This document shows, in pieces, positions 4,612-14,589 of a stretch of 64,000 nucleotides of DNA. A model generated the notes under the pieces. The model made no database searches. It was not told the origin of the DNA and worked only from the letters and a program-made list of their open reading frames with translations. The first letter of the stretch is position 1. Each line of letters starts with the position of its first letter. The translations under genes and the position numbers were made by a program. The stretch is from contig CANGOA010000001.1 in assembly GCA_947455255.1 (NCBI GenBank), forward strand, positions 1 through 64,000. The letters run 5' to 3'. This DNA is from Flavobacteriia bacterium (GTDB taxonomy: Bacteria > Bacteroidota > Bacteroidia > Flavobacteriales_D > Crocinitomicaceae).

Positions 4612-6582
4612 TTATTGAACTTTAAAGCCTATAATTTCTACTTTACGTTCATTAGCGGCTTTTACAGAATAGACTGAGTTTTTTAAATCGTTAGGATTGT
4701 CGCTAACTAAAGTTGTAGATTTATATTCTCCAAAAGGTTCTTCTTTAAAAATTAATTTAGCAGGTTCGTTTGCTTTAGGAATCATGTATTTTAATAGTTT
4801 ACCGTTTTTGTAAAATGAAATATAATTTCTAACTGAGCTTATTCTACGTTTACTCAAAAATTGGTTATAATCAGATTTAGCTAATGGGCTTGCATACCCT
4901 TTAAAAATGATTTCAAATGACGTACCATGTTCTAGTTCGATTTCTAGTATTTCTAAAAAATCATCTAAATCTTTTTTGCCTTTTTGAAGATTGTTACTAT
5001 AGAATCTATTAATTTCATATATAGCATCATTTTTTTCATTTCCAATTAAACCATTAGAATAGTTTTTCTGATAAATGGATAGCATTTTAATATAGTCATC
5101 ATATGTTTCTAAATAATTTAAATGTGTTATACTATCCTTTGTTTTTGGATTTGGGATATCATTATGAAAATACAACGAAACGGGTATAATTTGTTCTAAA
5201 CGATTGATGTTTTTTTGTTTTTCATTTTTACGAATATTTTCAGTAATTAATTTTAGTGAGTCAGATTTTGAAATTTGTCTAGTTGTATCAAATTTCACTT
5301 CTAGAATTGGTTTTAGTAAATAAATATCAGTGCAACAAGTTTTGTTTTCAGAGGTGTGATTTCTATTACTAGTTACATAATAATTAGTAGAGTCTTTAAC
5401 TATGTATGTATCATTGTTCGAACTATTGAATGGTTTTCCTAGATTAATAATTTCGTTTTCCTGATTCGGTTGAAATTTTGTTTTGTAAATATCGTATCCT
5501 CCATATCCATTATGCCATGTAGATGAAAAAAATAGAGTAGAAGTTGTATTATCGAAAAACGGTGAAATTTCATTTTCAGTTGAATTAATATAAGTGATTG
5601 GTTTGACTTTTTCAATTGAATTATTTTTGATACGACCATAGTATAAATCATATCCACCCATTCCAGTTTTTATATCAGAACAAAAGAATAAATAATCTGA
5701 ACCATCTATTGTGCCAAATGAAGGCATTGAATAAGAATAATTATTATCATTTATTTCCCCAATTAGAGTGTCTGGTTTTGACCAAACTCCTTTTTTATAA
5801 TTACTGATTAAAATTTTGCACTTTTTATTATTCACATTCGTACTACAGCTACTATAATAAAATTTCATTTTATCTGTAGAAAAAGTTCCATTTGATGTGT
5901 GGTTTGTTGCTGAGTTAATGGATGATATTTCTTTTAATTGGGTTCCATTTTCTTTTTTAACTGTATACAATTTATTAGTGTAATTTTCAACGGAAAAACC
6001 AGTTGAATCGTCACATTTGTTACATTTTAAAGAGCTTATAATTAGCATAGAACCATTTATACTATGTCCGAATTCAGAGTCATTACTTGATATACCATGT
6101 AATTTATTTATTGAATATTTTAAGGTGTCATTTTTGTTCTCTAAAGCCCAAACACAAGATTCAATTTCATGATTAACTTTAGTTTTATATTGTGTAAACT
6201 TTGAGTTTTCAATATAGGATGATGCTTTTTTAAATTGTTCTAAAGCAATATCGTAAATACCAAGTTGTTTATTTACAATACCGAGATTTAAGGATGTAAA
6301 AGGTTCAAAATTATTTTTAGTATCAATTCTCTGTAGTTTTTCTAATATTTCTTTTGCTTTCCAGAATTTTTTAGATGAAATTAAAATTTCAGAAAACTCG
6401 TTTAAAGCCTTCTTGTTAATGCTATCCCTTAAAAGAATACTATCGTAAAGTATCTCGGCTTCTTTATAATCTTCTTGTTCAACATTTAATTGAGCTCGAT
6501 ATAACAATTCTCTCTTAGTAGTTTGAGCCTGAATAATTGATGAAACTAATGTAATTAATAATATTATAAATAATCTAAGCAT
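4612..6582 (-). CDS. OmpA-family protein with TPR and PD40 repeats, partner of the adjacent PorP/SprF protein
   Basis: The chosen start, ATG at 6582, gives a clean signal peptide (MLRLFIILLITLVSSIIQAQ); a longer frame from 6621 would add 13 mostly basic residues in front of it. Order of domains: TPR-like helices (about residues 20-120), a beta-propeller-like region with PD40/WD40-like strands (about 220-430, with F-F-C-S-D and GMGGYDLYYG, GYGGYDIYKT repeats), then an OmpA-type peptidoglycan-binding domain (about 540-656, with F-K-G-Y-A-S and L-S-K-R-R). This architecture is common in Bacteroidetes next to porP/sprF genes, and T9SS PorE is an OmpA-like member. The gene overlaps the end of the PorP-like gene by 19 bases, which points to translational coupling. 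Likely role: periplasmic anchoring of a T9SS-associated outer-membrane assembly. Confidence 0.8.
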   Translation of the reverse strand: MLRLFIILLITLVSSIIQAQTTKRELLYRAQLNVEQEDYKEAEILYDSILLRDSINKKALNEFSEILISSKKFWKAKEILEKLQRIDTKNNFEPFTSLNLGIVNKQLGIYDIALEQFKKASSYIENSKFTQYKTKVNHEIESCVWALENKNDTLKYSINKLHGISSNDSEFGHSINGSMLIISSLKCNKCDDSTGFSVENYTNKLYTVKKENGTQLKEISSINSATNHTSNGTFSTDKMKFYYSSCSTNVNNKKCKILISNYKKGVWSKPDTLIGEINDNNYSYSMPSFGTIDGSDYLFFCSDIKTGMGGYDLYYGRIKNNSIEKVKPITYINSTENEISPFFDNTTSTLFFSSTWHNGYGGYDIYKTKFQPNQENEIINLGKPFNSSNNDTYIVKDSTNYYVTSNRNHTSENKTCCTDIYLLKPILEVKFDTTRQISKSDSLKLITENIRKNEKQKNINRLEQIIPVSLYFHNDIPNPKTKDSITHLNYLETYDDYIKMLSIYQKNYSNGLIGNEKNDAIYEINRFYSNNLQKGKKDLDDFLEILEIELEHGTSFEIIFKGYASPLAKSDYNQFLSKRRISSVRNYISFYKNGKLLKYMIPKANEPAKLIFKEEPFGEYKSTTLVSDNPNDLKNSVYSVKAANERKVEIIGFKVQ

Positions 6583-7562
6583 TTCTTGTGCATTATATTT
6601 TTTTCTTTTTTTCTTGACCAAATATATTGTATGTTTATTTCGAGCCCACCACGTCCGTTACTTGCTTTAGCTAGTTTTGATGTGTTTATATCATAGTTTA
6701 AACTAGTAATTAATTTGTTGGTTTTTAAACCAAATTGAAAGAATAGTGCATCTTTATTTCTAAAATACAGCCCTGAAATAAATTGATTTTTGGAGGGGAT
6801 TAGTGAAGAATAAAATTCACATCTAGTACCAAAAATTAATTCAGTATATGTTCCTTGATTTTGAAAATTCACAGTTGGTAGAAGATTAACATTACGTGAT
6901 AATTTATATGATAATTGGATGAAATTATGATACCTTCTAAGTCTAGCTACTTTAATCCCGTAAAATCCTTGATCTGGTTGATTAAGATTGTAAGCTGAAA
7001 TCCCACAAATCAACGTACAAATATCTGATAATGCTTTTGTGTAGACTACACCAAACCCAAAAGAAAGGCTTGATTTTTGTTGTGTTGTATTCTTTTCATT
7101 ACTTGGTAATAAGCCTGAATATATATAACCGTCAAATTGATTGTCAAACATATAATTTGAGTAATTCATCTGATTGTATTTAAAGTCTAATTCTAACCCT
7201 ATTCTAATTTTTGATTTATTTTGAATATCTTGAAAAATAGTGTAAGCTGGTGAAATTTTTAACTCAATTGTTCTAAAAATTCCATCACCAGTTACATCAT
7301 GTAACAATATACCTCCATATCCCAATTTTCTATTGTATTTATTAATTGCATCAAAAGTAAAAGCTTGAGTTTGATATGGTTTTGTGACATTTCTCCATTG
7401 ATCTTTTGTGCTCATTGTTAGTCTGTAATCACCAGACATATCTCCTGTATTTGCCGGGTTTTGATACATTGAATTTTCATTCGCTTGAGACCAATGTATA
7501 TCTTGAGCAATGCTTGTTACACTACCTGAGAAAATAAAAATAATAAAGATTAATTTTTTCAC
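6564..7562 (-). CDS. PorP/SprF family type IX secretion system outer-membrane protein
   Basis: The 332 aa protein has a signal peptide ending SVTSIAQ, then the family signature D-I-H-W-S-Q with N-P-A-N-T-G, followed by about 14 amphipathic beta strands of an outer-membrane barrel. PorP/SprF proteins support secretion or surface attachment of T9SS cargo. The start codon is GTG at 7562; no ATG lies nearby in frame and the signal peptide begins exactly here. A near-match to the -7 promoter element (TATCTTTA, minus strand, 7579-7586) lies just upstream. PorP-OmpA pairs often sit beside a giant adhesin, but here the next gene upstream is divergent and unrelated, so the substrate must be encoded elsewhere. 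Not necessarily the canonical gliding SprF. Confidence 0.85.
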   Translation of the reverse strand: MKKLIFIIFIFSGSVTSIAQDIHWSQANENSMYQNPANTGDMSGDYRLTMSTKDQWRNVTKPYQTQAFTFDAINKYNRKLGYGGILLHDVTGDGIFRTIELKISPAYTIFQDIQNKSKIRIGLELDFKYNQMNYSNYMFDNQFDGYIYSGLLPSNEKNTTQQKSSLSFGFGVVYTKALSDICTLICGISAYNLNQPDQGFYGIKVARLRRYHNFIQLSYKLSRNVNLLPTVNFQNQGTYTELIFGTRCEFYSSLIPSKNQFISGLYFRNKDALFFQFGLKTNKLITSLNYDINTSKLAKASNGRGGLEINIQYIWSRKKEKNIMHKKCLDYL

Positions 7563-7806: not shown

Positions 7807-8343
7807 ATGATACGATCATTTTTAAAACGAAAATTAACAGACAATCAATTGGCAAATATATTTGTTAATGGTTTATTGGAAGTTATTGATAACGGATTTA
7901 AAGATGTTGCTTTTTTAATTAATGAAGATCCTGCTTTTGAATCATCGCCCAATATTTCGCCAGATGCCCACTCCGAATTTACATTAATTGTAATAGTTGG
8001 CAATTTAGTTACTTTAGAGTCAAGTTTTGACGCTGATCAAGCATTTAGAGTTGAACAATTAATTTATCAGAAATTTGCTTCTATTTTTTCAATGACAGAA
8101 ACTAGTTTTGAAAATTTAATAAAAGATTATAAAAATTTTATTACTCGAGTAAATCATCCTTCAAAGAATATGTTGTATGGAATGTCAAAAGCAATATTCC
8201 ATAAATATAATTTGAATGATTTTCAAGATGAATATTTTAAACGAATGCAGGCACCCAATCCATTGTTTTTAAAAAGAATGGATGATGTTATGAGTAATTT
8301 TATTTGGGATTGGGATGTTTTCTTTAAAAAATACAAACTCTAA
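7807..8343 (+). CDS. Uncharacterised 178 aa protein
   Basis: I do not recognise this family. The protein has no signal peptide and no membrane segment, is acidic overall, and looks mostly helical at the C-terminus, with aromatic motifs such as NFIWDWDVFFKKYKL at the end. The N-terminal half contains a possible beta hairpin (SEFTLIVIVGNLVTLE). It stands alone between divergent porP and convergent rsmG, with its own promoter-like element at 7767, which argues that it is expressed. Codon use matches its neighbours, so there is no sign of recent transfer. It is probably a lineage-specific cytoplasmic protein. Confidence 0.7.
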   Translation: MIRSFLKRKLTDNQLANIFVNGLLEVIDNGFKDVAFLINEDPAFESSPNISPDAHSEFTLIVIVGNLVTLESSFDADQAFRVEQLIYQKFASIFSMTETSFENLIKDYKNFITRVNHPSKNMLYGMSKAIFHKYNLNDFQDEYFKRMQAPNPLFLKRMDDVMSNFIWDWDVFFKKYKL

Positions 8344-8368
8344 ACAGGTAATGAGAGTTTAAGTAGTA

Positions 8369-9007
8369 CTATTTTTTATTCATATCTAAATACACTACTT
8401 TTTTTGTTTCAAAGAACTCATAATCAAAGAATTTTGAAATTTCATTGTATTTTATTTTTTGTTTTACTGGTTTCATCTCTTCAGTCAAATCACCTCCTTT
8501 TAAATAAAGAATTCCATTTCTAAATTTATTTTTATTATCCGCTAGGAATTTTCCTTTTACCCATTTCAAGAATGCAGGCATAGCTGTTACTGCTCTACTT
8601 ACAATAAAATCAAATTGTTCTTTTATGTCTTCAGCCCTTGAATGGTAAGTGATTACATTTGTTATTTTAAGAGTTTCACAAACCTCATTAACAACTTTAA
8701 TTTTCTTTCCTATCGAGTCAACTAAAACAAATTGACAATTAGGGAACAAAATTGCCAAGGGGACACCTGGGAATCCTCCGCCAGTCCCAATATCTAAAAT
8801 CCGCGAATCATCCTTAAAAGATTGAATTTTTGCAATTGCAAGTGAGTGAAGAACATGTCTTTCATAAAACTGATCTAAATCCTTACGAGATATTACATTG
8901 ATTTGATTGTTCCAAAAAGTATAAATTTCTTTTAGTTGAGAAAATTGTTCTTTTTGTTTTTCTGTTAATTCAGGGAAATGTTTATATATCAATTCTACTC
9001 CGTCCAT
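8369..9007 (-). CDS. rsmG: 16S rRNA (guanine-N7) methyltransferase RsmG (GidB)
   Basis: RsmG methylates G527 (E. coli numbering) in 16S rRNA with S-adenosylmethionine. The sequence has N-x-Q-I-N-V-I-S-R-K, then F-Y-E-R-H-V-L-H-S-L, the SAM-binding loop LDIGTGGGFPGVPLA and VDSIGKKI, all typical of the family. The length (about 212 aa) is normal. I prefer the ATG at 9007 (MDGVELIYKHFPELT), which begins one base after the stop of the acyl-CoA ligase gene; the longer start at 9031 adds eight residues and overlaps that gene by 23 bases. The tight junction suggests cotranscription with the ligase. A convergent gene ends 26 bases away without an obvious strong terminator. Confidence 0.92.
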   Translation of the reverse strand: MDGVELIYKHFPELTEKQKEQFSQLKEIYTFWNNQINVISRKDLDQFYERHVLHSLAIAKIQSFKDDSRILDIGTGGGFPGVPLAILFPNCQFVLVDSIGKKIKVVNEVCETLKITNVITYHSRAEDIKEQFDFIVSRAVTAMPAFLKWVKGKFLADNKNKFRNGILYLKGGDLTEEMKPVKQKIKYNEISKFFDYEFFETKKVVYLDMNKK

Positions 9008-9008
9008 T

Positions 9009-10769
9009 TTATACTGAATAAATTTGTTCAACTTCTTTGTGATATTTTGACAAAATAATTTTTCGTTTTAATTTCAATGTCGGAGTTAATTCTCCACCTT
9101 CTACAGAAAATTCGTGATCTAATAAGATGAATCTTTTGATTTGCTCAAAGCCACCATAGTTTGAATTCATTACATCAACTTCTTTTTGAATTCGATCAAT
9201 AATTTCATTTGTTTGAATTAGTTCAATATTTGATAATTGAGAAATAGAATTTAAATGTTTATTATGAGCCCATTCCTTTATATAATTAAAGTTGGGGACA
9301 ATTAATGCACCAGGGAATTTCTGACCTTCACCAACTACCATCATTTGTTCTATGAAGCGAGATTCTTTAAATTTATTTTCCATGGCTTGTGGAATGATAT
9401 ATTTACCTCCAGATGTTTTGAAAATTTCTTTTTTACGATCTGTAATTTTTAAAAATTTTCCTTCAACAAACTTGCCGATATCGCCAGTATGAAACCAACC
9501 CTCACTATCTATTTCTTCAGCTGTTTTTTCTGGTAAATTATAGTATCCCATCATAACATTTGGTCCTTTTACAAGTATTTCACCATCTTCTGCTATTTTA
9601 ACTTGTACATCATGAATTAATGTACCAACTGTTCCAATACGAATTCCATTTTTAATACAGTTAACAGAAATTACTGGAGATGTTTCAGTTAATCCGTATC
9701 CTTCTAAAATAGTGATGTCAGCAGCAAGAAACATTTTTGCAAGTTTAGGTTGCAATGCTGCACTACCAGAAACTATTGCACGAGTTTCTCCACCTAATGC
9801 TTCTTTCCATTTTGAAAATATTAATTTTCTAGCTATTGCTAATTTAAAATTGTAAAAAACTGAACGATTTATAACATCATATTGTTCTCCAATTTTAACA
9901 GCCAAAAAAAATAATTTTCTTTTTAAGCCTGTTAACTCTTCTCCTTTTGATATTATTTTCTCATATACTTTTTCTATCAATCTAGGTACTGCAGTAAACA
10001 TGTGAGGTTTTACTTCTTTGATGTTTTCTCCGATTGTATCAAGTGATTCAGCAAAGTAGATCGCGCAACCCATATAGATGTAAAGGTAATGTAGCATGCG
10101 TTCATATACATGGCAAACAGGCAAGAAGGTAAGAACTCTCGAGTGTTCGTCACATGGCATTCTATCAACACATCCCATGACATTGGATAAAATATTATTG
10201 TGTGAAAGCATTACACCCTTTGGATTTCCTGTTGTTCCAGATGTATATATAATAGTTGCAAGATCTTGGTTTTGTATTACAGATTTTCGATCAACGATGA
10301 TTTCATCACTAATGTTTGTGTAATTTTTGTGAATTTCAAACCAATGAGGAATAAACTCCTCTTTTGTAAAACAAAATAAGAATTCCAAAACTGGTAGATC
10401 TTTTTTTAAATCATTGATTTTATTATATAAGTTTACATCTCCAACAACACAAAGTTTAAGTTGAGAGTCATTAAAAATATACTTATAATCTTCAGTTGAA
10501 ATGTTTGGATAAATAGGAACTACAATTGCTCCTATTTGTAATGAAGCAACATCTAACACGTTCCATTCGAAACGGTTTTGAGAAATAATACCTATTTTAT
10601 CTCCTGGATTTATACCCAAAGAGATTAAGCCCTTTGCTGTTTTTTTAACAAGGTTTATAAAATCTTGAGTAGAAATTGAAGTCCATATTCCAGTATGCTT
10701 TGTCGAAAACATTTTAGAATTAGGGAATTTTTCTAATTGATAATAGGGAATATCGAATAATCTTTTCAT
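9009..10769 (-). CDS. Long-chain fatty acid-CoA ligase (AMP-forming)
   Basis: The 586 aa protein is an ANL-superfamily adenylate-forming enzyme: P-loop-like IIYTSGTTGNPKGVMLSH (about residues 170-190), A5 motif GYGLTETSPV, the GWFHTGDIG motif with its conserved Asp, and the hinge D-R-K-K-E-I-F-K-T-S-G-G-K-Y-I. The arrangement matches long-chain acyl-CoA synthetases of the FAA1/FadD15 type, which activate fatty acids for membrane lipid use or beta-oxidation. It is probably membrane-associated but has no transmembrane segment. rsmG follows directly. The next gene upstream ends 55 bases away. The fatty acid chain length is inferred from the family only. Confidence 0.88.
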   Translation of the reverse strand: MKRLFDIPYYQLEKFPNSKMFSTKHTGIWTSISTQDFINLVKKTAKGLISLGINPGDKIGIISQNRFEWNVLDVASLQIGAIVVPIYPNISTEDYKYIFNDSQLKLCVVGDVNLYNKINDLKKDLPVLEFLFCFTKEEFIPHWFEIHKNYTNISDEIIVDRKSVIQNQDLATIIYTSGTTGNPKGVMLSHNNILSNVMGCVDRMPCDEHSRVLTFLPVCHVYERMLHYLYIYMGCAIYFAESLDTIGENIKEVKPHMFTAVPRLIEKVYEKIISKGEELTGLKRKLFFLAVKIGEQYDVINRSVFYNFKLAIARKLIFSKWKEALGGETRAIVSGSAALQPKLAKMFLAADITILEGYGLTETSPVISVNCIKNGIRIGTVGTLIHDVQVKIAEDGEILVKGPNVMMGYYNLPEKTAEEIDSEGWFHTGDIGKFVEGKFLKITDRKKEIFKTSGGKYIIPQAMENKFKESRFIEQMMVVGEGQKFPGALIVPNFNYIKEWAHNKHLNSISQLSNIELIQTNEIIDRIQKEVDVMNSNYGGFEQIKRFILLDHEFSVEGGELTPTLKLKRKIILSKYHKEVEQIYSV

Positions 10770-10824
10770 AATGTAATCTTCAAGGAACGAACTAAATATA
10801 ATTATTATTATTTTAAATTCAATT

Positions 10825-11856
10825 TTATTCCATGCTATATATTTTCTTTCCTTTTATAAATGTTGCATTTGAGTATACATTATTGTAGTCATGTGATTTA
10901 CTTAATGAGGTTTCAAAAATGGTGAAATTGGCATATTTCCCAATATTTAATGATCCAGATTTAGTTTCTGAAAAAGTTAAATAGTTTGACCAATTGGAAA
11001 TAGATTTAAGTATTTTTACAAAATCAACATTATTTAATTTGGAATAAACTGAAAGTTCATAATATAATCCATTTTTTGAACTTTTAGAGCCAAATACAAA
11101 TAATGATGGGTTGAATTTATTATTTTTATTTAATAAAAGGAAAAAATTGTTTTCTTCTAATAATTTAAAAGTATTTTTCTCACTATCATCCAAATTAAAT
11201 GCAAACCAACGATGATCTTTTTTGTAATCTTCTAATGATTTAAGGATAATAGAAATAAATTGTTTGGATTTTTTGAAATCAAGACCAATTTGTAAATTCT
11301 GATTTTTTGCAATTGCACAAGCTTCAAGAATTGCTTCAGGAGAATTATTTGAAATTGTAAATCCTTGAATATGAATTTTTTGATTTTTTATGGTGTTTTT
11401 TGCTCTTATAAAAGATACATTTTCTTTATTTGGAATTAAATTTATGTGCCAAATTAATTCCATTTGACTTGAATATTGTAATAGTTTTAATAGTTGATCG
11501 TTTGATACATTATGTACAAAAACTTCTGTTATGCCTCTTTCTAGTTGTTTTATTTCAATTTCTTTTAATATTTTTATGTTAAGAATTGAGTCAATTATCA
11601 AATTGCCTTCAGTAAAGTTTGGAGTGATTTCTTTTCCTTGTAAATCAGTAATTTCATCTGCACGATATTTATTTAAAATTTGTCGCTCAGGTCCGATTTC
11701 AATTATTTTTCCATTTTTAATTGCTATTGCATTCCCTGTTGAGTATGAATCATCTAAGCATAAAATTGCTGCATTATGAAAAATTAGGTCAACTTTTTCC
11801 CCTTTCATACAGCTACATAAAATCAATGTAAGAAATATTAAATACATGATTTTCAT
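10825..11856 (-). CDS. Degenerate amidohydrolase-like lipoprotein
   Basis: The N-terminus is a lipoprotein signal (LTLILCSC, predicted lipidated Cys16). The next ~50 residues match the composite beta-sandwich of YtcJ-type amidohydrolases (DLIFHNAAILCLDD, GNAIAIKNGKIIEIGP, EITDLQGKEITPNF). In active members the GK-x-x-x-PG-F is followed by D-x-H-x-H, which binds the metals; here the sequence is GKEITPNFTEGNLIID, so the His pair is missing. The C-terminus recovers the family pattern (GSLNIGKYANFTIF, normally G-x-x-GK-x-A-D). At 343 aa it is much shorter than YtcJ (~550 aa). It is therefore probably non-catalytic, perhaps a binding protein. Its start lies two bases after the stop of the membrane protein gene at 11859, indicating one operon. 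Confidence 0.65.
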   Translation of the reverse strand: MKIMYLIFLTLILCSCMKGEKVDLIFHNAAILCLDDSYSTGNAIAIKNGKIIEIGPERQILNKYRADEITDLQGKEITPNFTEGNLIIDSILNIKILKEIEIKQLERGITEVFVHNVSNDQLLKLLQYSSQMELIWHINLIPNKENVSFIRAKNTIKNQKIHIQGFTISNNSPEAILEACAIAKNQNLQIGLDFKKSKQFISIILKSLEDYKKDHRWFAFNLDDSEKNTFKLLEENNFFLLLNKNNKFNPSLFVFGSKSSKNGLYYELSVYSKLNNVDFVKILKSISNWSNYLTFSETKSGSLNIGKYANFTIFETSLSKSHDYNNVYSNATFIKGKKIYSME

Positions 11857-11858
11857 AG

Positions 11859-13154
11859 TTAAAAGAATTTTGATTTAATTTTCTTAAAGTCAATACTAAG
11901 TAAAATTATACTTAAAGTAAAGGGCATAAAAGGAGTTTTATATCTTACAATTGCTCCTAGAACAGGTACGGTTAAGCCAATCAATAAGGTTAATAAAATT
12001 GTAAAGTACAACCCAAAATACATTAATGGTAATTGTTCTTTTTGGGGTTTTTTAAAAAAGAATATTAGTAGTAGGATTAAAAAAAATAGAATTGTGTTTT
12101 CAAATGCTGAAAAACTAAAAAACACATTCTTTATTTCAAATAATGTTGGACGAAATAAACCGTTTAAAAATGCTTCTGGACAATTTTTTATATATGACCA
12201 TGCTGTATCATCTAAAATACCTAATTTAATAGTACTTCCAGCTTTAGTGTCCCTAGCTACATTGATAAAATCTTGTTGTTTGTATTTCAAATTTCCAGTA
12301 AAATCTAAGCTTGGATGTATTTTCTTTGCGTTAAAAGCTAAAGTGATAATTGAAAGATTAATAATTAAAAATGTCAAACCTATTTTATTTATTTTTAGAT
12401 ACTGAATCAGTACCCATGCTAAAATACTAGGAAGAAGTACAATAAGAACATATGTTTTGGTAATTGCTAATAGACCTAACGTTATTAGTATCAGAAAAAT
12501 GTATTTTATTTTATTATCTACAAGTAAAAATTGAGTAAATGCAAAAACAAACAAACCAATACCAAATAACAATATACTTTCTTTGAGAATACCAGACCCC
12601 CAAAATAATACTGATGGAATTAAGAAACATGCAATAATTAATTCTTTTTTTTGATTCTTAAAATGAATAAAAAAAGCCTTAAAAATACCCGTTAATCCAA
12701 TAAATGACAAAGTAGATAATACGAGAGTATGAACATGGTAGTAGCCAAAAGAAAATAAATAAATGACGGCGTTAAATCTTATTACAGTTCGATTGTCGTT
12801 AAAGATGTTACTTGAGTGCGGTTTAAACCAATAATTTGTTTCTAATAAATTATAGCGAATTTCAGATGATTCATTTTGTATGCCGAAAATTATTTTCCAA
12901 AATCGAAGAGGATTTATTTTGTATACATTCTCATATAAATATTTCGCATCGTCGAAATATTTAAATACGTCAGCAGTATTTCGATCAGTATAATAATATG
13001 TATAAACGTAATATACAGATACACCAACAATGAATTTTAAAGTAAATAAAATACTAAGTGTTTTAAATGATATTCCGGAATTTTTAAAAAAAGTCCATTT
13101 TTTTAGCATTAGTATGCTAAGCAAAAAATAAAATATGATATAGATATTTCCCAA
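11859..13154 (-). CDS. Multi-pass membrane protein, possible GT-C-like glycosyltransferase (paralogue 1)
   Basis: The 431 aa protein has about ten hydrophobic helices. It is a clear paralogue of the protein at 13189-14589: both have a Y-x-Y-T-Y-x-Y segment ending helix 2, then an acidic loop (DVFKYFDDAKYL here, DIYKYFEDGRQL there), FWxKPxSxxIxNDNxT, and a C-terminal PVLGxxVRYKxPxxP. An acidic first loop and a late R-Y-x-x-P segment are features of GT-C glycosyltransferases, which use lipid-linked sugars; this is inference only. The start appears to be TTG at 13154: residues 1-24 from this codon align without gaps with the paralogue's N-terminus, whereas the first ATG (13109) would remove half of the first helix. 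It sits 34 bases after the paralogue and two bases before the lipoprotein gene. Confidence 0.7.
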   Translation of the reverse strand: MGNIYIIFYFLLSILMLKKWTFFKNSGISFKTLSILFTLKFIVGVSVYYVYTYYYTDRNTADVFKYFDDAKYLYENVYKINPLRFWKIIFGIQNESSEIRYNLLETNYWFKPHSSNIFNDNRTVIRFNAVIYLFSFGYYHVHTLVLSTLSFIGLTGIFKAFFIHFKNQKKELIIACFLIPSVLFWGSGILKESILLFGIGLFVFAFTQFLLVDNKIKYIFLILITLGLLAITKTYVLIVLLPSILAWVLIQYLKINKIGLTFLIINLSIITLAFNAKKIHPSLDFTGNLKYKQQDFINVARDTKAGSTIKLGILDDTAWSYIKNCPEAFLNGLFRPTLFEIKNVFFSFSAFENTILFFLILLLIFFFKKPQKEQLPLMYFGLYFTILLTLLIGLTVPVLGAIVRYKTPFMPFTLSIILLSIDFKKIKSKFF

Positions 13155-13188
13155 GAAAGATTTCGTTTTCTAGACAAAGATACTTATT

Positions 13189-14589
13189 CTATTTTCGAAT
13201 GTATTTATGAATAAAACTTTCTATTTTGGTTTTGTCTAGTAATAATAACATACAAAAATATAAAAGTGGAAGAAGTGGAGCTTTATATCTTACCAAATTT
13301 CCAAGAACAGGAACTAACAGTCCTAAAAAAACAAAAGTTAGAAAAATAAATGTACCTATAGAAAATAAAATTATTTGTTGGTCAACATTTAATTTTTTAG
13401 TGAATATAAAAGTAAATAACAATCCTATTAGGAATAATAAGTTTTCAAAAGCAGGATAAATTGTCAAGAGTGAGTTTATTTCAAAAATATGAGGTCTAGA
13501 AAATCCATTACTAATGCCATAAGGTATACAAATGAAAAAATTAGACAGTTGACCATCCAATTTTTTTGTTGAAATTAAACTTTTTGCATTTGCTAAACGT
13601 GCTTCAAATTTATAATCTGCTTGTTTAAATCTTAACATTTCAAGTAAATTATAATTTTTTCCGAGTACATTTTGATTATAAGATAATTTATTTAAACGAT
13701 TGTATTCTTTTTGTTTTTCAACTTCTGTTTTGTTTTGGTAACTATATTTGATAGGATTGTGCGCTAAACTCCATGTTATGAAAAATATGATTAATAATCC
13801 ATAGGTTGAGATAAAAAATAATTTAACATTTTGACTATTTAAGAGTTTAATAAAAAGTACACAAATTATGGATGGAAACATGAATCCTAGAAGGTACGTT
13901 TTAGAAATTAATAACGTAAAACAGCTTATTATAAAACCGATAATATTTAATAGTTTAAATCTGTAATACAATTTTTTTGCGAAATAGAGTAGGAGTGCTA
14001 ATGAACAAAAAATAATTGTCTCTTTAAGTAATCCTGTTGTCCACAAAGCAATAGATGGAAGGAAAAATATAAGTATGAAAAATATTTTTTTTAATTCTAA
14101 AAAAGACGATAATGTTTTATACAACAATATCGTCGCAAAAAATGATAGAATACTAATATAAATAGTTGCAAGAACTAGTTGATTGTTTGAAATTAAATTT
14201 AGTAAGCTTGTTATAATAATGATTGTCTGATTGTCATTATAAATCCCATATGAATTTGGTTTTACCCAGAATTTCATTTCATGATAATAACTTATACTAT
14301 TTACACTCTTAGGTAAATTTCCTTTTAAAATTTCAAAATAATCTGCAGGTGATTTTTTTAAAATTATTGCTAATTGCCTTCCGTCTTCGAAATATTTATA
14401 AATATCACTAATCGATTTATTAGAATAATGATATGTGTAGATATACCAAATAGCGAGTCCATAAATTAACTTTATAATAAATGCAAAAATGATTAAAGGA
14501 AAAGAAATTTCATTAATTTTTAAATATTTGCTTTTATAAACAAGGAATATGCTAACTATAAAAAATAGTGTTATATATATGTATTCCAT
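13189..14589 (-). CDS. Multi-pass membrane protein, possible GT-C-like glycosyltransferase (paralogue 2)
   Basis: The 466 aa protein has about ten to eleven hydrophobic helices and shares its whole layout with the gene at 11859-13154, so the two arose by tandem duplication. Compared with it, this copy has a longer soluble loop (about residues 270-340, rich in N, K and Y, including NKTEVEKQKEYNRLNKL). Acidic loop 1 reads SDIYKYFEDGRQL and the C-terminal signature PVLGNLVRYKAPLLPLLYF. I know of no established function. The ATG start at 14589 lies 15 bases after a minus-strand -7 element (14604-14611), so this is the first gene of the 14589 to 10825 operon. GT-C membership rests on the loop acid and the R-Y-x-x-P pattern and would need structure comparison. 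Confidence 0.7.
   Translation of the reverse strand: MEYIYITLFFIVSIFLVYKSKYLKINEISFPLIIFAFIIKLIYGLAIWYIYTYHYSNKSISDIYKYFEDGRQLAIILKKSPADYFEILKGNLPKSVNSISYYHEMKFWVKPNSYGIYNDNQTIIIITSLLNLISNNQLVLATIYISILSFFATILLYKTLSSFLELKKIFFILIFFLPSIALWTTGLLKETIIFCSLALLLYFAKKLYYRFKLLNIIGFIISCFTLLISKTYLLGFMFPSIICVLFIKLLNSQNVKLFFISTYGLLIIFFITWSLAHNPIKYSYQNKTEVEKQKEYNRLNKLSYNQNVLGKNYNLLEMLRFKQADYKFEARLANAKSLISTKKLDGQLSNFFICIPYGISNGFSRPHIFEINSLLTIYPAFENLLFLIGLLFTFIFTKKLNVDQQIILFSIGTFIFLTFVFLGLLVPVLGNLVRYKAPLLPLLYFCMLLLLDKTKIESFIHKYIRK

Follow-up and report, generated by a model that had tools for sequence, protein, structure and literature searches.

The tandem gene pair and its neighbors

The window (the whole 64,000-nucleotide stretch analyzed, positions 1 to 64,000 of contig CANGOA010000001.1) carries two adjacent membrane protein genes on the minus strand. 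Gene A (11859-13154, minus strand, from the open reading frame list) encodes 431 aa from a TTG start and is a predicted GT-C_A glycosyltransferase of the ancestral, single-copy type found across Bacteroidia. Gene B (13189-14589, minus strand) encodes 466 aa and is a tandem paralogue of A with the same predicted class. The genes are separated by 34 bases. A pairwise alignment of A and B gives 31% identity and an E-value of 1e-51 over 459 aligned columns; their resemblance is thus homology and not chance, and the tandem paralogous pair described in the initial annotation is real. B is longer by approximately 30 residues, which lie in the periplasmic TM7-TM8 loop. The motifs that had been quoted for the pair (FKYFDDA/YKYFEDG, the W-x-K/R...NDN segment, and the C-terminal VRYKxPxxP) are all present and are conserved in homologues.

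A lipoprotein gene related to YtcJ-type amidohydrolases (10825..11856, minus strand) starts 2 nt past A and is probably co-transcribed with it. The encoded protein is shortened (343 aa, where counterparts elsewhere have 428-607 aa) and lacks the HxH metal motif. This motif is also missing from ten loci of the same genus, and the loci without it are those with tandem family copies; HCH is kept at 19 other examined loci. The two traits amount to one event in one lineage, so their coincidence may be meaningless. Further along the window, a PorP/SprF family gene (type IX secretion) and a large neighboring gene occupy 4612-7562 on the minus strand.

The immediate neighbors of the pair are a YdfG-like SDR, the amidohydrolase, PurL, and an amino acid permease, none of which points to a glycan. 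Similar neighbors recur among 80 loci of the family. The YdfG-like SDR is near 43 of them, the YtcJ-type amidohydrolase lipoprotein near 30, and the amino acid permease near 14, mostly downstream and on the same strand as the family gene, and PurL is divergently upstream in 36. As a guide to the substrate across the 80 loci, these recurring genes name no glycan. At one locus (L049:7983-15510), a family gene is immediately followed by two genes, one PorV-like and one a Peptidase_C25 (PorU-like) gene of type IX secretion; a second locus (L050) has genes of equal size, and the two represent two related genomes only.

Family status, distribution, and other copies

A and B have no match in Pfam or NCBIfam at E-values up to 1, and a profile of 76 homologues has no match among PDB chains at E-values up to 10. 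The earlier remark that no known family is apparent holds for all three collections. Neither protein reaches the curated Pfam cut-off of PMT_2 (PF13231), for which hmmscan gives no match at E-values up to 1, and neither reaches that of GT87 (PF09594), which the Pfam search did not match. A search of a viral structure library matched nothing. No description of the family was found in a literature search whose reach largely excluded subscription journals.

Family relatives are present in genome contigs in at least 543 confirmed cases, of which 80 loci were taken further. The titles of these loci are Bacteroidota except for one Chlorobiota and one Actinomycetota metagenome-assembled genome. The Actinomycetota title looks wrong because the PurL gene of that genome is 95% identical to the one in the window. 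Among the 59 nearest relatives, 51 carry a family match, against only 15 of 198 genomes sampled from the phylum; the family is therefore widespread within the order and scattered outside it.

A FastTree tree of 133 members, with uneven support at the deep forks, places A among single-copy orthologues from across Bacteroidia. A separate clade unites B with a third paralogue, C; the searches found this clade only in the genus of the window and in one other tandem array. Several members of the genus have three family copies in a row. B is classed as a genus-level tandem duplicate. The additional residues in its TM7-TM8 loop could mark the site where acceptor specificity shifted. A second, separate array of three tandem copies occurs in another Flavobacteriia genome (L105:2549-6587).

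Three more family members are encoded in the same genome, one on contig C97 and two in surface-glycan clusters (contigs C3 and C22). The initial annotation had stated that no sugar-nucleotide gene is adjacent, which is correct within the window; the members on C3 and C22, however, sit among glycosyltransferase genes. The C3 cluster combines a family member with two GT2 proteins, a GT61 protein, a PIG-L deacetylase, an acyltransferase, and a PMT_2 protein. By length and sequence, the two GT2 proteins look like polyprenyl-phosphate-sugar synthases, a resemblance below the level of a family assignment.

The C97 member (8092-11190 of locus L038, minus strand) is a fusion in which the family membrane domain follows a secreted beta-helix domain of roughly 600 residues. 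Over its first ~100 residues, the beta-helix is closest among solved sequences to a GH120-like xylosidase (E 4e-7) and a rhamnogalacturonan lyase (E 0.01). Open frames of 1021-1070 aa surround family matches in 12 of 13 genomes of the genus, and two loci outside the genus also have the fusion.

Predicted fold, topology, and candidate active site

The AlphaFold2 models of A (pLDDT 93.5, pTM 0.93) and B (pLDDT 90.2, pTM 0.89), both of high confidence, were compared with the PDB using Foldseek. A matches AftB (probability 1.00 and 0.99), ArnT (0.89), DPY19 (0.80), and an oligosaccharyltransferase (OST, 0.51). B matches a 701-residue chain of a translocon complex (1.00), which we take to be STT3A, followed by OST (0.96), DPY19 (0.87), yeast OST (0.80), and PglB (0.75). 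All confident matches of both models are GT-C_A enzymes. Among the matches listed, the highest outside GT-C_A is WaaL (GT-C_B, 0.28, from B), none outside the GT-C class exceeds 0.2, and transporters reach 0.11 or less. Judged from scores rather than superpositions, the matches are weak (E-values 0.01-1, TM-scores 0.32-0.40); the low TM-scores are as expected if the shared part is the conserved core only. The GT-C reading first made from the sequence gains support, in that structure comparison of the predicted models places GT-C_A enzymes ahead of all else.

GT-C_A enzymes are recognized by a seven-helix transmembrane core with two juxtamembrane helices, JM1 and JM2, after its first helix, and by a conserved Asp at the periplasmic tip of JM1. 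The predicted structures have this core. In the model of A, helices 62-78 and 82-90 lie in the loop after helix 30-54, the JM1/JM2 position, and the TM7-TM8 loop contains helices 285-302 and 318-334, the counterparts of JM4 and JM5 in AftB.

Profile-profile comparison leads to the same class. The A-led family alignment scores 55.2 against PMT_2 built from relatives (probability 87, E 3.9e-6, identity 12%), the B-led alignment scores 47.6, and the group from the glycan clusters scores 48.5. Controls for this match give 22.9 with a reversed profile and 23.0-25.5 with block-shuffled ones, and halves of the PMT_2 set still score 45-48 against the family. Two accepted GT-C families, PMT_2 and GT87, score 70.2 against each other as a positive control. 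The family scores 33.8 against GT87, only a little above background, and 19.7 against an MFS profile, which is background. An EpsG search for a further comparison profile yielded three loci, too few to build one. The family/PMT_2 alignment pairs D62 of A with the Asp of the 'wDE' motif and K233 with the Lys of 'LtK', and it places the C-terminal RYKxPxxP opposite 'YxxPxxP'.

These scores also bear on whether the family could be made up of Wzy/WaaL-type polymerases or ligases, GT-C_B enzymes that use diphospho-lipid donors. Such a role would suit the two members in surface-glycan clusters, WaaL is among the weak matches of B, and PMT_2 itself scores 35.5 against Wzy_C. Against Wzy_C, A and B nevertheless score no higher than background (19.8 and 19.9) and the glycan-cluster group scores 31, far below the 55, 48, and 48.5 obtained with PMT_2, and every confident structural match is GT-C_A. 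This identity is very unlikely. Membership in Wzy/WaaL and in MFS was rejected on these profile scores (19.8/19.9 and 19.7, respectively).

The topology was assigned with the N-terminus outside. All loops assigned to the cytosol are rich in Lys/Arg, with mean counts of 3.3, 1.3, 1.9, 2.3, and 2.4 per loop, and the C-terminus has 2.8. Of the positions conserved at 85% or more, F23 is the only one in a cytosolic loop, and nearly all others are on the periplasmic face. An outside N-terminus is needed in the fused copy since its apparent signal peptide and beta-helix domain precede the first membrane helix. An extra N-terminal helix is thus predicted to put the N-terminus in the periplasm. Because the N-terminus is outside, the GT-C_A core would start at the second helix, which is where the PMT_2 alignment begins too.

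The candidate active site is located at the entry to JM1 (codons 57-67 of gene A, DRNTADVFKYF, 12954..12986, minus strand; codon n begins at 13154-3(n-1), counted from the gene start). Helix 62-78 begins with D62, at the JM1 tip on the periplasmic side of the model of A, and Y66 is four residues on. The D62 position is occupied by Asp in all homologues covering it, in all five subgroups, and is the conserved Asp expected at the JM1 tip of a GT-C_A enzyme. D62, W109, K191, and K233 show no variation in A and B within the 76-sequence alignment, a pattern suggestive of an active site, and K191 is Lys in 133 of 133 sequences. The acidic loop had been named as a hallmark of lipid-dependent glycosyltransferases. 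The conservation check bears this out for D62, six residues before the DD pair that was quoted, but the pair itself is only partly conserved. D69 does not vary among the 76 aligned sequences and is kept in B, the fusion members, and most A-type members; it is lost in the C paralogues and the glycan-cluster group, and D68 drifts. The C paralogues have also lost Y235 and R404 in part.

An essential Asp at the JM1 tip is present in all GT-C_A enzymes (PMC12041299, PMC12041525). In AftB, the catalytic Asp belongs to a DD motif at the JM1 tip, and two juxtamembrane helices lie between TM7 and TM8 (PMC12041299). In PimE, Y62, four residues after D58, holds D58, and K195 binds the donor phosphate (PMC12041525). 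By analogy, Y66 and K233 of A may map to Y62 and K195 of PimE.

A fold of this type does not in itself guarantee catalysis. PIGU is a precedent for a GT-C_A-like fold without glycosyltransferase activity (PMC12041525), and A and B could in principle be PIGU-like scaffolds, or transporters. The residues lost from the C paralogues (D69, and in part Y235 and R404) and the adjoining genes, which are not glycan genes, would be consistent with such a role. Against it, D62, W109, K191, and K233 of A and B never change in the 76 sequences, as would be expected of an active site, MFS profiles score at background, and Foldseek transporter matches do not exceed 0.11. A role without transferase activity is highly improbable.

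Proposed function and comparison with known systems

The best reading is that A and B belong to an uncatalogued Bacteroidota GT-C_A family that uses polyprenyl-phosphate sugars. It is a new family inside an already known superfamily. With a probability of approximately 0.8, A and B are predicted to take sugar from a polyprenyl-phosphate carrier and pass it to an acceptor in the periplasm. Prediction and alignment supply the fold, the topology, and the conserved residues, whereas the donor class and the residue roles are those that we infer from the fold. The active site would face the periplasm; after the extra helix comes the canonical core, with the juxtamembrane helices in the loop that leads to the following helix. 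D62 would be the catalytic Asp, acting as general base or nucleophile and held in place by Y66. The phosphate of the polyprenyl-phosphate sugar would be gripped by K233 together with other invariant basic residues (K191, R404) as the sugar passes to its acceptor. B probably acts on the same glycan as A, or a related one, with altered acceptor binding.

The acceptor might instead be protein. A and B would then be oligosaccharyltransferases or protein mannosyltransferases that deliver a glycan or sugar to proteins and not to a lipid-linked glycan or LPS. B is structurally closest to STT3/OST and PglB, PMT_2 is the profile that the family matches best, and a 2022 paper described the O-oligosaccharyltransferase for protein O-glycosylation in Bacteroidetes as unknown (PMC8729774). 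Across both models, however, OST and AftB/ArnT matches are similarly strong, so the fold leaves the acceptor undecided, and a family found in 15 of 198 sampled genomes is too patchy for a phylum-wide O-glycosylation transferase. A protein acceptor is unlikely. The family was rejected as the missing phylum-wide O-oligosaccharyltransferase on its distribution.

A further, more tentative reading takes in the fused copies. The new GT-C_A family would be restricted, or nearly so, to Bacteroidota, and its periplasmic N-terminus would permit carbohydrate-active domains to be fused in front. A single polypeptide might then transfer sugar to a periplasmic glycan and also trim or epimerize the same glycan; this extended proposal is speculative and rather unlikely. 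A likely periplasmic glycosyltransferase family carried by 51 of 59 nearest relatives is nameless in Pfam and NCBIfam, which leaves a conserved part of envelope glycan assembly in Bacteroidota unannotated. The beta-helix fusion and the tandem duplicates are handles for finding the glycan.

AftB, the mycobacterial arabinofuranosyltransferase, is the GT-C_A enzyme most similar to A in structure (probability 1.00 and 0.99) and shares with the model of A the Asp at the JM1 tip and the two juxtamembrane helices between TM7 and TM8 (PMC12041299). A and B differ from it in lacking a C-terminal periplasmic domain, the TM-score is only 0.32, and there is no sequence match. The main architectural difference from both AftB and ArnT is the extra N-terminal helix of the A/B family.

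PMT_2 (PF13231) and ArnT-type enzymes provide the best profile match of the family (score 55), and ArnT matches A in Foldseek with a probability of 0.89. However, A and B have no Pfam hmmscan match to PMT_2 at an E-value of 1, identity is 12%, and the alignment runs from the second helix of the family. The STT3/PglB oligosaccharyltransferases are the best structural matches of B (probability 1.00-0.75), but A and B lack their large soluble C-terminal domain and have no sequence match to them. The PimE/GT87 mannosyltransferases share D-x3-Y at the JM1 tip (D58 and Y62 in PimE, D62 and Y66 in A) and a candidate counterpart of the phosphate-binding Lys of PimE (PMC12041525), whereas the GT87 profile score of the family, 33.8, is slightly over background.
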